A DNA stretch of 64,000 bases from Marinactinospora thermotolerans DSM 45154. Lineage in GTDB: Bacteria; Actinomycetota; Actinomycetes; Streptosporangiales; Streptosporangiaceae. The stretch covers positions 1 through 64,000 of the forward strand of contig NZ_FUWS01000013.1 in NCBI RefSeq assembly GCF_900167435.1, in the 5' to 3' direction. Position numbers and translations under genes: made by a program. Below the pieces are notes generated by a model. The model was not told where the DNA came from. It ran no database searches and saw only the letters and a program-made list of their open reading frames with translations. Below, one piece after another: positions 9,966 through 14,456 of this stretch (its first letter is position 1; every line of letters starts with the position of its first letter).

Positions 9966-11525
9966 TCACAGCGTCTGGGCGGAGCGCTCCGGGCTCTTCC
10001 ACCGCCCGTCGGACTTCGCCGTCCACGCCTGCGGGATCGTGCGCAGCGTCAGATAGGCGTCGATCACGCGGACCGGCAGGAAGAACAACCCGTAGACGAG
10101 GTAGCCCGGCCGACGCCGGACCATCGCCATGACGCATGTGAGCACGTAGTCGGGGACGAACAGGCCGACCGCGATGACGGTCAGGGGAAGCACCGCCGTG
10201 ACCGCGGCGTAGCCGCTCTCGTACCACCCGAACGCCAGGACCGCGTCGTCGGTGAGCATCGGCAGCAGGGTGAACACCCCGAGCGCGACCGTGGTCAGCA
10301 GGGTCACCGCGACGAGCACGACTTCCAGGATGTAGAAGAACAGCGCGAACCAGAACAGACTCGGCCAGACGCCGTGGCGCCGGACCGTCTGCCAGAAGCC
10401 GAGCGTCCAGCGCCGCACCTGGCTGACGTAGTCGCCCAAGGTGAAGGGGTCCTGACAGTAGGCCTTGGTGTCGGGCCGCATCGAGATGCGCCCCAGGCTC
10501 TTGTGGTGGACCTCGAAGGTCATGTTGAAGTCCTCGATCACCAGACCTCGCGGGTTGATGTCGATGTGCTTGAGGACGCTGGTCCGGTAGGCGCTGGCGA
10601 ACCCCGGCACGATGAACGTCGCGCTGGTGAACCGCCAGGTCTGGCCGAAGCGGATCAGGTACTGGAGCAGCCAGTACAGCCGGTCGCGGTAGGCCGAGAT
10701 GAGCCGTCCCACGACCGTGCGCTCCTTCGGCTTCCACTCGGCCACGACGAAGCCCGCGACCGCGGCGACCGTGGGATCGCCGAACTGCCGCCGGGCCCCC
10801 TCGACGTAGTTCTCGTCCAGCTCGGTGTCGGCGTCGAGGATCACCACGCCGTCGTAGTTCTCGATCAGGTCGAACTCGGCGATCACGGCTTCGATGGCGC
10901 CCGCCTTGCCGCGGTTGCTGAGCAGCTCCAAGACGTTGACACCGGTCTCGGCGGCGATGTCGGCGGTCGCGTCGTTGGAGCTGTCGGAGACGACGTAGAT
11001 GTCCCAGCGGTTGAACAGGCGCAGGGCCGACCTGATGGCCCCGTCGATGACGGGCTCCTCGTTGTGGGCCGGGATGATGACGGCCAGGGCCATCGGCTCC
11101 GCCGCTGTCCGCGGCGGAGCGGGATCGGCCGTGTCCGATTCCGTCCGGACGGCGACGGCCGTGGTATTCCCCACGTCGTCACCGCCGTCGCCGTCTTGGG
11201 CCGAGGAGCGGACCCTGACCAGGGAACGGCCGCGTTCGGCGACCGCGCCGAGGGCCCTGTCCTCGGTCGTGTGCCCGCTCGCGACCGCCCTGGCCCGGCG
11301 GCGGGCGAGTGTCTGAATCGACTCGTCTCCCAGACGGAGCAGGCCGACGAAGGACCAGACGAGCAGGTTGACCCCGAACGCCATCCAGAGGAACAGCGGC
11401 GCCGGGGTGTCTCCCGTGCCCGCTGAGTCGAGGGCGAAGCGGATCCATTGCACGAACAGGACGACCGCCAACGTCAAGGCGAGCAGTCCCGCGAGCCAAC
11501 TTCCGATGAAACGTGCCGTTCGCAC
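9966..11525 (-). CDS. Membrane-embedded processive glycosyltransferase (GT2)
   Basis: A 519-residue polysaccharide synthase of the NodC/IcaA/hyaluronan-synthase type. It has two N-terminal helices (about 7-27 and 45-65) and a low-complexity cytoplasmic linker of about 70 residues. The GT-A domain holds VIIPAHNEEPVIDG, the substrate-binding LDADTELD, the acceptor-site IEDFNMTFEVH and the QVRRW motif. Four or so C-terminal helices follow. It probably polymerises a sugar nucleotide and threads the chain through the membrane. I start at GTG 11525 because CCCCGGAGGA lies at the right distance; the ATG at 11597 has only an abutting AGGGG. It is divergent from a WbqC/PIG-L/epimerase operon, which suggests a joint glycan pathway. 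The product cannot be predicted. Confidence 0.88.
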   Translation of the reverse strand: MRTARFIGSWLAGLLALTLAVVLFVQWIRFALDSAGTGDTPAPLFLWMAFGVNLLVWSFVGLLRLGDESIQTLARRRARAVASGHTTEDRALGAVAERGRSLVRVRSSAQDGDGGDDVGNTTAVAVRTESDTADPAPPRTAAEPMALAVIIPAHNEEPVIDGAIRSALRLFNRWDIYVVSDSSNDATADIAAETGVNVLELLSNRGKAGAIEAVIAEFDLIENYDGVVILDADTELDENYVEGARRQFGDPTVAAVAGFVVAEWKPKERTVVGRLISAYRDRLYWLLQYLIRFGQTWRFTSATFIVPGFASAYRTSVLKHIDINPRGLVIEDFNMTFEVHHKSLGRISMRPDTKAYCQDPFTLGDYVSQVRRWTLGFWQTVRRHGVWPSLFWFALFFYILEVVLVAVTLLTTVALGVFTLLPMLTDDAVLAFGWYESGYAAVTAVLPLTVIAVGLFVPDYVLTCVMAMVRRRPGYLVYGLFFLPVRVIDAYLTLRTIPQAWTAKSDGRWKSPERSAQTL

Positions 11526-11882
11526 TGGTTGTCCTCCGGGGTGCAGGCGGGTTCCGGCCGACCGGTAACCGACGAAACCGGCGATATGTTGACGCATCCC
11601 CTATGGGACTAGTTCACCGGTGATCGCGACCTATGTAGGCCACGCAAATCCTATGCCCGGACTTGCGACCGCTGTGCCCCATTGATGCAATACCGGAAGG
11701 GGCTTAGTTGGCGCCACCTGTTCTACGAACTTTCCTCGTATTCGCTCCTTCACCTTCAAGACCACCGGGAAGCCGAATCATCCACGGAACCATCCGTGAG
11801 ACGGGCGCAGGGGCCACGTGGTGGACGGCCCTCCCGGTGCCGGCGCCACATCAGGCACACAACGCCTCGGAAGGGAACCACA
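11526..11882. other. Divergent promoter region of the glycan module
   Basis: 357 bp between the synthase (leftward) and the WbqC operon (rightward). Base composition is more AT-rich around 11640-11780. I see no gene and no strong palindrome in it. It should carry both promoters. Confidence 0.4.
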
Positions 11883-12593
11883 GTGCGCGTCGCCATGCAC
11901 CAGCCGCACTATCTGCCCTGGCTGGGGCTCCTTGACAAGGCCGATCGCAGCGACCTGTTCGTTGTGCTCGACCACGTCCAGTACGAACGGAGGGGGTGGC
12001 AGAACCGCAACTACATCGCCTCGAAGAGCGGCCCGGTCCTGCTGACGGTCCCCGTGGTCAACCGGAGCCGCAACGAACAGATCCGGGACAAGGTCATCGA
12101 CCGAACCCGGCCATGGCGGGAAAAACATCTACGGGCTATCTCAGAACACGGCTACCGGACGGCCCCATTCTGGAAGGATTTCGGTCCAGAGATCACCGCC
12201 ATCTACGACACCGATTGGGAACGCCTCATCGACATCTCATTGGCCACTACTTACTTCATTTTTAACGCCTTCGGGATCACCACCCCGGTTGTCCGTTCCA
12301 GTGAACTCGGGGAATTCCCGGGCCAGAAAAGCGAACTCCTGGCCCAGATCTCCGCGAAGGTCGGCGCCGACACCATGCTCTCCGGCGACGGCGCCCGCGG
12401 CTACGTCGATCCGGAGGTCTTCCGCCGCTACGGCGTCGAAGTGGAGTGGCAGAACTTCCGGCATCCCGAGTATCCGCAGTTCCACCGCAAGGGAGGGGAG
12501 TTCCTGCCCCGGTTGGCCGCTGTGGACCTGCTGCTCAACGCCGGACCCGAAGGGATGGAGCTGGTGCGCGCGGCACGCGTCACCGACGGCTAG
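11883..12593 (+). CDS. WbqC-like family protein
   Basis: A 236-residue protein of the WbqC family. These occur in O-antigen and other glycan loci and are proposed to transfer or modify amino-sugar groups, but the chemistry is not settled. The family start is clear: MHQPHYLPWLGLLDKADRSD, then FVVLDHVQYERRGWQNRN near 30-47, LTVPVVNRS near 58 and SGDGARGYVDPEVFRRYGVEVEWQNF near 170-195. GTG 11883 has AAGGGA upstream. It is the first gene of a rightward set with the PIG-L deacetylase and epimerase, divergent from the GT2 synthase. A short AT-rich patch near 12230-12265 differs from its surroundings. Confidence 0.88.
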   Translation: MRVAMHQPHYLPWLGLLDKADRSDLFVVLDHVQYERRGWQNRNYIASKSGPVLLTVPVVNRSRNEQIRDKVIDRTRPWREKHLRAISEHGYRTAPFWKDFGPEITAIYDTDWERLIDISLATTYFIFNAFGITTPVVRSSELGEFPGQKSELLAQISAKVGADTMLSGDGARGYVDPEVFRRYGVEVEWQNFRHPEYPQFHRKGGEFLPRLAAVDLLLNAGPEGMELVRAARVTDG

Positions 12594-12688
12594 ATCTCCC
12601 GGCGGCACGGCCGCCGTCCCGCCGGCCACGGCATCCCGCATACCTCCCGCGTGACTCCGTACCCGCAATCCCCCTGTTAGGACATGGC

Positions 12689-13402
12689 ATGACGATCGAT
12701 TGGGCCAAGGAACGGATTCTCATCTTCGCGCCTCACCCCGATGACGAGACGTTGGGGTGCGGCGGGCTGATGAGCAAGGCGAAGGCGGCCGGAGCCGAGG
12801 TCTTCGTCCAGTTCATCACGGTGGGCGACACCGCGGACTTCTCCGCGGCGGGGCTGTCCACCGCCGAGGAGCGGTTCCGTGAGATCAAGGAAGTCGCCGA
12901 CTTCTACCGCTGGGACGACTGGAACATCGCCTTCCCCGGCGACGAGTACCACCTGAAGCTGGACCGGCTGCCACGATTCGAACTGGCCAACGCGATCGAA
13001 CGCCACAGTCCTCTGGCCATCGCCGAGCTCCGCCCGAGCGTGGTCATCACGCCCCACTGGACGAGCTACAACCAGGACCATCGCGCCACGGCCGAGGCCG
13101 TGCACACCGCGCTGCGCCCTTCCGACAACCGGATGCGGCACCATCCTCGCCTGGTCCTGGCCTACGAGGAGGCCGCCGACCAGTGGCGTTACGAGGCCAC
13201 CACCTCGCCCAACCTCCTCGTGGAACTGACCGAGGAGCATCTCGACGACAAGATCACCGCCATGCGCCTCTACGGAACCCAGATCCACGGGCATCCGCAC
13301 ACCCGCTCGGAGCTGACGCTACGCAGCCTGGCCGCGTTGCGCGGAATGCAGAGCGGGGTGGCCTTCGCCGAGGGCTACCACACGCTGCGCTGGCTGGCCT
13401 GA
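12689..13402 (+). CDS. PIG-L family deacetylase
   Basis: A 237-residue zinc-dependent LmbE/PIG-L enzyme. The metal motif is APHPDDETLGCGG (residues 14-26), and the second metal site is TPHWTSYNQDHRAT around 118-131, with the His, Asn and Asp-His spacing of the family. Such enzymes remove N-acetyl groups from GlcNAc-containing substrates, for example MshB in mycothiol synthesis or antibiotic glycans. Next to a glycan synthase and an epimerase, a carbohydrate substrate is likely. ATG 12689 has AGGA 7 nt ahead. An overlapping ATG 5 nt earlier is out of frame and stops at once. Confidence 0.92.
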   Translation: MTIDWAKERILIFAPHPDDETLGCGGLMSKAKAAGAEVFVQFITVGDTADFSAAGLSTAEERFREIKEVADFYRWDDWNIAFPGDEYHLKLDRLPRFELANAIERHSPLAIAELRPSVVITPHWTSYNQDHRATAEAVHTALRPSDNRMRHHPRLVLAYEEAADQWRYEATTSPNLLVELTEEHLDDKITAMRLYGTQIHGHPHTRSELTLRSLAALRGMQSGVAFAEGYHTLRWLA

Positions 13403-13466
13403 GCCCCGACGCGGCCCGGGACCTGTGACAGGGAAGACACCAAGCACCCTTGGAGGGGAAACGACG

Positions 13467-14456
13467 ATGAAGGCCGTTGTGACCGGCGGTGCCGGGTTCA
13501 TAGGTTCCCATCTCTGCGACTACCTCGTCGCCCACGGGCACGAGGTGGTCGTCCTGGACGATCTGTCAACGGGGTCGGAACGCAACCTCGAACAGCTCAT
13601 CGGGAATCCCGCCTTCGAGCTGGTCAAGGGTTCCATCCTGGACAAGTCACTGGTCGGCGACCTGGTCGGCGACTGCGACACGGTGTTCCACCTGGCCGCC
13701 GCGGTCGGTGTCCACACCATTGTGGACAAGCCGTTGCAGTCGCTGCGCATCAACCTGCACGGCACGGAGAACGTCGTGGAGGCCGCCGCATCCCACGGCG
13801 CCCGCTTCCTGGTGGCCTCCACCAGCGAGGTCTACGGGAAGAACGACGCGGACGGCCTCACCGAGGACGCCGACCGCATCCTGGGATCCCCTTTGAAGAG
13901 CCGCTGGTCCTACGCCGCGGCCAAGGGGCTCGACGAACTCGTCGCCTACATCTACGGCCAGGAGACCGGCCTGCCCTGTGTCATCACGCGGTTCTTCAAC
14001 ATCGTCGGTCCCCGTCAGACCGGTCGTTACGGCATGGTGGTGCCGCGCTTCGTCGCTCAGGCCCTGGCCGGCGAACCGATCACCGTCTACGGTGACGGCA
14101 CCCAGCGGCGCTGCTTCGGTTCGGTGTTCGACATCATCCCGGCGATGGTCAGGCTCATGGACACCCCCGCGGCCTACAACCAGGCCGTGAACCTCGGGGG
14201 GATGGAGGAGGTCTCCATCAAGGGCCTGGCCGAGCGTGTCATCGAGCTGACCGGCTCCACCAGCGAGGTGCGGTTGGTCTCCTACGAGGACGCCTACGGC
14301 GAGGGGTACGAGGACATGCAACGGCGCATGCCCGACACCTCCCTGGCGGCCGACCTCATCGGATACGAGCCACAGCGCCGGCTCGACGACATCATCACCT
14401 CCATCATCGAGTACAAGCGTGCCGGCGCCCCCTCGCCGCGGGTGACGATCGCCTGA
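13467..14456 (+). CDS. NAD-dependent nucleotide-sugar epimerase/dehydratase
   Basis: A 329-residue extended short-chain dehydrogenase. The Rossmann motif TGGAGFIGSHLCDY is at residues 7-20, the Ser of the triad lies in ASTSEVYGKN, and the Tyr-Lys pair is in SYAAAKGLDE. The sugar-side segment is NIVGPRQTGRYGMVVPRFV, typical of UDP-glucose 4-epimerase and UDP-glucuronate decarboxylase relatives. Which sugar it acts on cannot be decided. GGAGGGG lies 8 nt before ATG 13467. As third gene behind WbqC and PIG-L it likely supplies or tailors an activated sugar for the GT2 synthase. Confidence 0.9.
   Translation: MKAVVTGGAGFIGSHLCDYLVAHGHEVVVLDDLSTGSERNLEQLIGNPAFELVKGSILDKSLVGDLVGDCDTVFHLAAAVGVHTIVDKPLQSLRINLHGTENVVEAAASHGARFLVASTSEVYGKNDADGLTEDADRILGSPLKSRWSYAAAKGLDELVAYIYGQETGLPCVITRFFNIVGPRQTGRYGMVVPRFVAQALAGEPITVYGDGTQRRCFGSVFDIIPAMVRLMDTPAAYNQAVNLGGMEEVSIKGLAERVIELTGSTSEVRLVSYEDAYGEGYEDMQRRMPDTSLAADLIGYEPQRRLDDIITSIIEYKRAGAPSPRVTIA

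Follow-up and report, generated by a model that had tools for sequence, protein, structure and literature searches.

Deacetylation of the poly-N-acetylglucosamine (PNAG) type takes place outside the cell and is carried out by enzymes of carbohydrate esterase family 4 (CE4), and PgaB, of the PgaABCD system, carries a domain resembling glycoside hydrolase family 18 (GH18). In bacillithiol synthesis, the deacetylase BshB makes the amine substrate of BshC, the presumed cysteine-adding enzyme, and in mycothiol synthesis deacetylation by MshB is followed by ligation of an amino acid to the amine by MshC (both according to the available portion of a 2015 review, PMC4360819). Members of the WbqC family have been found in O-antigen clusters, yet the family is called uncharacterised in the accessible part of one report (PMC5532660). 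Here we analyse a four-gene module in a 64,000-nucleotide stretch of Marinactinospora thermotolerans DSM 45154 (positions 1 to 64,000 of contig NZ_FUWS01000013.1; hereafter the window), whose genome comprises 5.66 Mb in 37 contigs and, judged by its relatives, lies near Nocardiopsaceae. The genes had been named in an initial annotation made from the letters of the DNA, and in a profile search of the window proteins all four families scored above their Pfam cut-offs: a membrane glycosyltransferase of family 2 (GT2) of the processive-synthase type (9966-11525, minus strand) and, divergent from it on the plus strand, an operon of wbqC (11883-12593), a PIG-L/LmbE-type zinc N-deacetylase gene (12689-13402) and a gene for a sugar-nucleotide short-chain dehydrogenase/reductase (SDR; 13467-14456), with gaps of 95 and 64 bases within the operon.

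With bacillithiol synthesis (BshA/BshB/BshC) the module shares a PIG-L-type deacetylase, a predicted BshC fold and a logic in which deacetylation is followed by acylation. Unlike that pathway, it has a membrane GT2 and an SDR and no BshA-type glycosyltransferase of family 4 (GT4), and its WbqC is a protein of 236 amino acids from a separate Pfam family, against 540 amino acids for the BshC chain 4wbd. The pathway set of a GT4 BshA, BshB and BshC is not found in the module, the whole genome not having been searched for BshA and BshC. The PgaABCD and IcaADBC systems are similar in having a processive-type GT2 of similar layout, a deacetylase and, as in a second family described below, GH18; they differ in that the window module has an SDR and a WbqC in addition, and a PIG-L protein without an export signal in place of a CE4 enzyme that we take to be exported. 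O-antigen clusters with WbqC have PF08889, a sugar-nucleotide SDR and amino-sugar chemistry in common with the module, which differs in its synthase-type GT2 and its Gram-positive lineage. Mycothiol synthesis (MshA-MshD) likewise uses a PIG-L deacetylase, but the PIG-L protein of the window scores far below the MshB cut-off. A likeness to Vi-type systems (TviB/TviC) lies in the pairing of GT2 and SDR with a uridine diphosphate (UDP)-sugar dehydrogenase at two other loci (L177 and L178), whereas no such dehydrogenase stands beside the window module. No Wzx/Wzy gene is present among its listed neighbours. A link to the sporangium-matrix clusters of Actinoplanes was considered and dropped, these being of Wzx/Wzy and GtrA type and of different composition in the accessible parts of the reports (PMC13390465, PMC12691653).

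Conservation of the four-gene module

A synteny survey, set beforehand as the test of the initial grouping, found the four genes together in other genomes. Among 80 WbqC loci kept from at least 547 confirmed ones, all 31 with a WbqC at least 57% identical to that of the window carry the four genes in the window arrangement, which is absent from the remaining 49 (WbqC at most 47% identical). In a sample of one genome per genus of the window's family (f1), the module is present in 17 of 60 other genera; GT2 was directly seen in 16 of these, and in the seventeenth (G040) the contig stops before GT2 and a GT2 match lies near the end of another contig. With a changed arrangement, the set recurs in a second family (f21), which belongs to the same class, and the conserved association of the four genes is near-certain. 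The SURF1 and DUF3817 genes that border the module on one side adjoin it in 31 of 31 loci, and the DUF202 and thioredoxin genes on the other side in 28, the contigs of the other three coming to an end; hisG is present in only 10 of the 31 stretches. Given such conserved flanks, synteny within f1 could by itself reflect simple inheritance. One record with a Nocardiopsis-type locus and flanks (L068) is labelled Glycomyces fuscus and is possibly a misnamed genome.

The arrangement in f21 is the stronger test of the association. There, the SDR, PIG-L and wbqC genes follow one another in this order on one strand in six of six loci, with flanks unlike those of f1, and GT2 comes next after wbqC, in the same direction, in five; the contig of the sixth ends after wbqC. 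Save for one thioredoxin match in L132, 4.8 kb away, the f1 flank genes were unseen in the f21 stretches fetched, which is why they were kept out of the module. In all five f21 loci with GT2, this gene is followed by one for a GH18 (Pfam-confirmed in L127 and L129), and in L129, the locus for which hydropathy was computed, the GH18 protein has a hydrophobic N-terminal segment, which may serve either as a signal peptide or as an anchor. A search of the Marinactinospora genome for an orthologue of this GH18, run without a positive control, gave none at E<=1e-5; other GH18 genes are present there (six matches). In the f21 genome G266, GT2 lies in two pieces in different frames (L131:7845-9040), representing a pseudogene or a sequencing error.

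A survey of 296 genomes of the class listed a GT2 match at E<=1e-30 in 24, the window's own genome included. Among the other 23, WbqC is present in 14 of 15 f1 genomes, 5 of 5 f21 genomes and none of the three others (f28, f35 and f48). At L177 and L178, which belong to these three, GT2 is accompanied by a UDP-sugar dehydrogenase and an SDR, without PIG-L or WbqC, and in L177 also by GH18; at L179, GT2 was the only one of the queried genes found. From this pairing with the dehydrogenase, GT2 and SDR look like a core, with PIG-L and WbqC as a partner set alternative to the dehydrogenase.

Some observations tell against a fixed unit of four genes. In one genome of genus g46 (G255; L180:6014-6988), GT2, PIG-L and SDR are kept and the gap of about 975 bp, which contains no N, holds no recognisable WbqC. 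Between families, identity to the window proteins is 29-39% for WbqC and PIG-L, 55-59% for SDR and 41-49% for GT2. In a WbqC tree of 11 f1, 6 f21 and 34 other rows, part of the available sequences, the Nocardiopsaceae copies group with two betaproteobacterial ones and not with f21, a single clade not being rejected (approximately unbiased (AU) test, p 0.06). Since identity differs by gene and the tree splits f1 from f21, the module was perhaps not inherited as a single unit. Independent recruitment of PIG-L and WbqC in the two families is suggested by the tree and is not established at this AU value.

The putative GT2 synthase and the shared intergenic region

The GT2, of 519 amino acids, matches PF00535 (69.1 bits) as well as PF13632 and PF13641, and aligns to positions 40-406 of the 407 in the PgaC_IcaA NCBIfam profile at 62.4 bits, short of the equivalog cut-off of 422.3. 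In the numbering of a longer open reading frame of 543 amino acids, it contains D205, D255-A-D257, E355-D356 and Q393xxR396W397, the D, DxD, (E)D and QxxRW residues that we take to be the motifs of processive GT2 synthases; D, DxD, ED and QxxRW are invariant in 26 of 26 GT2s compared. The rows for this comparison, and for those of PIG-L and SDR below, came from 19 of the 31 f1 loci, four f21 loci and, where the gene exists, L177 and L178. Hydropathic segments at 31-49, 68-86, 426-444 and 463-481 flank the catalytic domain in two pairs, and the protein has both the motifs and the flanking transmembrane segments of a processive GT2. Motifs, topology, the PgaC/IcaA alignment and the GH18 gene of f21 support the reading of GT2 as a putative synthase of a secreted glycan.

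Searches of the PDB with the GT2 sequence, singly or as a profile, returned nothing useful. Its predicted structure is poor (predicted local distance difference test (pLDDT) score 55), which weighs against the route proposed below and led us to leave GT2 out of the fold search. Structure prediction had been proposed as a way of examining a synthase channel; a model was made, of a quality too low to show one. This, and the fact that WbqC elsewhere adjoins genes resembling PF00953 lipid-carrier transferases, would suit a GT2 that adds a single sugar to a lipid or wall acceptor, the module then decorating an existing polymer (for example, teichoic acid) with an N-acylated amino sugar. We regard such a role as quite unlikely for a protein that has all the processive motifs, QxxRW among them, with no variation across the 26 compared, that aligns to the PgaC_IcaA profile over almost its full length and that in f21 stands beside a GH18 with a hydrophobic N-terminus.

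Translation of GT2 very probably starts at GTG 11525 and not at ATG 11597, because the Shine-Dalgarno sequence GGAGGA precedes the GTG, many homologues start at the same MRTARF and the ATG start would put part of a conserved promoter-like element (11617-11591) within the coding sequence. With the start corrected, the intergenic region common to GT2 and the wbqC operon is 11526-11882; the promoter region that the initial annotation had them share thus stands as a common region with a conserved block, and its extent is revised. Of 32 available intergenic regions, 30 were aligned (L057 was dropped for want of an N-terminal alignment and L071 for a 1.7-kb gap), and most of them share a strongly conserved block of about 100 bp, the sequence outside it being variable; in the window, the best-conserved part is at about 11573-11670. 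In L071 (8354-10000), from Nocardiopsis metallicus, the spacer between GT2 and WbqC is about 1.65 kb, compared with the usual 0.36 kb or so. An RNA element in the conserved block was considered and rejected, as Rfam gave no match either at gathering scores over the window or at E<=5 over 11400-12000.

Within the block, the exact form GTGAAC-N17-CGTC (11591-11617, minus strand) occurs on the GT2 strand in 26 of the 30 regions, being absent from L047, L048, L058 and L076, and only once in the whole 64-kb window with both strands scanned. It resembles the consensus of promoters for extracytoplasmic function (ECF) sigma factors, and the Nocardiopsaceae GT2 is probably expressed from such a promoter. 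A relaxed pattern, present in 30 of 30 regions but also at 55 places in the window, had been drawn up with the alignment already in view and was not used as evidence. The exact element was found in none of the six 350-bp stretches upstream of the f21 SDR genes, which likewise counts against the proposed route. Upstream of these SDR genes in L127, L129, L130, L131 and L132 there are TCAC-type direct repeats, spaced by about 11 bp and followed by a GGCTTACTGG-like sequence; by eye, the repeats look like the box of an OmpR-family regulator, and L128 is without them.

Deacetylase, WbqC and SDR

The PIG-L protein (237 amino acids) belongs to PF02585 with 69.1 bits against a gathering score of 28.2, and its best NCBIfam profile is BshB1 (54.6 bits; the cut-off of 182.5 is not reached). 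H16, D18, D19 and SYNQDH131 are invariant in 24 of 24 proteins compared, the PH-x-DD and DH residues presumably forming the metal site. Against the MshB profile it scores 24.1, where the equivalog cut-off is 224.35, and the genome has a separate MshB on another contig (425.9 bits), so the window protein is not the mycothiol deacetylase. As hydropathy reveals no signal or membrane segment, the substrate of the enzyme would be a cytosolic precursor, not the completed polymer. This location bears on the possibility that the module makes an exopolysaccharide with plain free amines, of the glucosamine type, from a precursor deacetylated by PIG-L, with WbqC as an accessory. The alignment of GT2 to nearly the whole PgaC profile, the intact metal-site residues of PIG-L and the GH18 gene after GT2 in f21 all agree with such a product; we nevertheless think it unlikely, given a PIG-L without the export signal expected of exported CE4 enzymes, and given that WbqC and PIG-L pair well beyond the module, which ties the role of WbqC more probably to the amine. 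The deacetylated surface polymer of the initial annotation is supported as regards a secreted-glycan synthase, and not as regards its free amines, the PIG-L being apparently cytosolic and WbqC best read as re-acylating the freed amine.

WbqC, translated from a GTG start, belongs to PF08889 (229.5 bits, gathering score 21.3). Its AlphaFold2 model, built from 66 aligned sequences, has a pLDDT of 95.3 and a mixed alpha/beta fold. When VIA-align was run over the 1000 PDB chains ranked highest by Foldseek, the best match to the model was BshC of Bacillus subtilis (4wbd), with Z 13.3 and a root-mean-square deviation of 3.7 over 223 of 236 residues; the next match had Z 7.8, and the guidance for the aligner puts the usual best Z at 7-8 for models without a clear match and at about 14 for mostly helical ones. 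Rows 2-50 contain aminoacyl-tRNA synthetases, phosphopantetheine adenylyltransferase (PPAT), ATP sulfurylase and pantothenate synthetase, proteins that we take to share the HUP fold.

The surroundings of WbqC in other bacteria point the same way. In the 49 other loci, which were picked by WbqC similarity and not by neighbours, genes within 2 kb of WbqC include PIG-L in 21, an SDR like that of the window in 22 and a DegT aminotransferase in 6, as opposed to 0, 0 and 2 in the 538 kb farther out; these counts are approximate, the PIG-L queries having included the tested loci L086, L099 and L122 and the DegT query having missed L107. Fourteen of the 21 PIG-L-linked loci are from Rokubacteria and are not independent, and the other seven are from Omnitrophota (two), Chloroflexi, Methylomirabilota, Betaproteobacteria and two unplaced genomes. 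A PF00953-type gene, N-acetylglucosamine (GlcNAc)-1-phosphate transferase-like, lies within 3.5 kb in 19 of these 21 loci, and four actinobacterial loci (f19/f20) bring GT4, PIG-L and WbqC together as in BshA/B/C. In published gene lists, as far as accessible, WbqC and DegT are neighbours both in Bacteroides and in a flagellar island of Dickeya (PMC10434189, PMC9650423). PIG-L and DegT being suppliers of amines, their nearness fits an amine-acylating role, and on the predicted fold and these partners the balance tips slightly towards WbqC being an amine-acylating enzyme. Two further genes recur near WbqC: one encoding a protein of about 550 amino acids without a Pfam match just before WbqC in L086 (8349-10004), with relatives within 3.5 kb in 17 of the 21 WbqC-PIG-L loci, and a radical SAM gene related to one in L092, within 3.5 kb of WbqC in 15 of 67 loci (L077-L144 without L080).

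A number of results weigh against this assignment. Foldseek gave no match of the WbqC model to the PDB at E<=0.001, so that the BshC match, made on a predicted model, was returned by the second aligner only. When the profiles of WbqC and BshC were compared by hhalign, the result was not significant (P 0.34 and 0.12), and in Pfam the BshC family PF10079 had no WbqC hit at E<=0.001; a PDB search with the WbqC sequence alone likewise gave no useful match, and one with a profile gave a single match at E 0.84 that we took as chance. With sequence profiles not significant, we do not class WbqC as a BshC, to which it is tied by its predicted fold and its partners only. Among the 49 loci, 18 have the SDR only, with no amine supplier, and 5 have none of PIG-L, SDR and DegT, although one of these, L107, has DegT next door by Pfam. 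In Nitrospina (L092:8877-14525), WbqC stands in a row with an SDR, two radical SAM/SPASM proteins, a GT2 and a methyltransferase, again with no amine supplier. The ligase activity of BshC itself was undemonstrated in vitro as of the available text of the 2015 review (PMC4360819). Among WbqC-bearing genomes tested, BshC is present in 4 of 9 and 1 of 18 in two sets. The accessible text of papers naming wbqC gives no activity for WbqC, and literature searches on glycine transfer by WbqC, BshC and its relatives, PIG-L exopolysaccharide systems and Nocardiopsis wall polymers turned up nothing that settles the role. A glycine transferase role is said to have been proposed for O-antigen genes of the WbqC type, a proposal that our literature search did not recover.

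PIG-L and WbqC might also make a small glucosamine-amino acid metabolite, similar to bacillithiol or mycothiol, with GT2 and SDR as mere neighbours. The BshB1 and BshC best matches would be explained in this way, as would the GT4-PIG-L-WbqC loci of other actinobacteria. We consider it improbable, because the module has no GT4 or BshA-like gene, PIG-L and WbqC accompany GT2 and SDR in two families whose gene orders differ and the genome already has MshB.

The SDR (329 amino acids; PF01370, 191.9 bits) is similar to UDP-glucuronate decarboxylase, ArnA and LegB. Its best PDB sequence match is UDP-glucuronic acid decarboxylase 1 (E 3.4e-57), and S120, E121, Y149, K153, R286 and R287 are kept in 26 of 26 proteins compared, the TSE, YxxxK and R residues being presumably those of the active site. 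It stays below the equivalog cut-offs of PRK11908 (153.6 against 294), ArnA (129.7 against 777) and TviC (81.1 against 760). Two UDP-sugar dehydrogenase candidates lie elsewhere in the genome.

A proposed route to an N-modified envelope glycan

That the four genes form one module for an N-modified envelope glycan, in a chain running from SDR through PIG-L and WbqC to GT2, has in our estimate just short of an even chance. Under this proposal, the SDR would supply a UDP-sugar, with UDP-glucuronate or a related UDP-uronate as the probable starting material, and the cytosolic BshB-type PIG-L would strip the N-acetyl group from a nucleotide- or lipid-linked precursor resembling GlcNAc. WbqC, judging from its predicted fold and its partners elsewhere, would then acylate the freed amine with a carboxylic acid, an amino acid being the likeliest, and GT2, given its motifs and topology, would polymerise the sugars and pass the chain through the membrane. 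In f21, the GH18 with its hydrophobic N-terminus would probably trim the polymer outside. The substrate, amino acid and polymer named here are what we infer for the module.

The pieces are of known kinds. The combination, and the link between WbqC and the BshC fold with a deacetylase as partner, may be new, in that we found neither reported in a search that mostly left subscription journals outside. If correct, the proposal offers a testable biochemical role for WbqC, a large Pfam family without one, and would link glycan decoration to the thiol-cofactor pathways of bacillithiol and mycothiol, the mechanism of BshC being still open in the available portion of the 2015 review (PMC4360819). A wider reading, which we advance tentatively and judge the less probable outcome, is that WbqC is remotely related to BshC and acts generally as an N-(amino)acylating enzyme of amino sugars, that bacteria of at least six phyla swap the N-substituent of glycan precursors by PIG-L and then WbqC, that in Nocardiopsaceae, under ECF-sigma control, a synthase makes from this an envelope polysaccharide bearing amino acids and that BshB/BshC would be a special case of an older glycan-editing pair. 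For the organisms themselves, the module predicts that Nocardiopsis, Thermobifida and Streptomonospora would carry an unusual N-modified envelope polymer.

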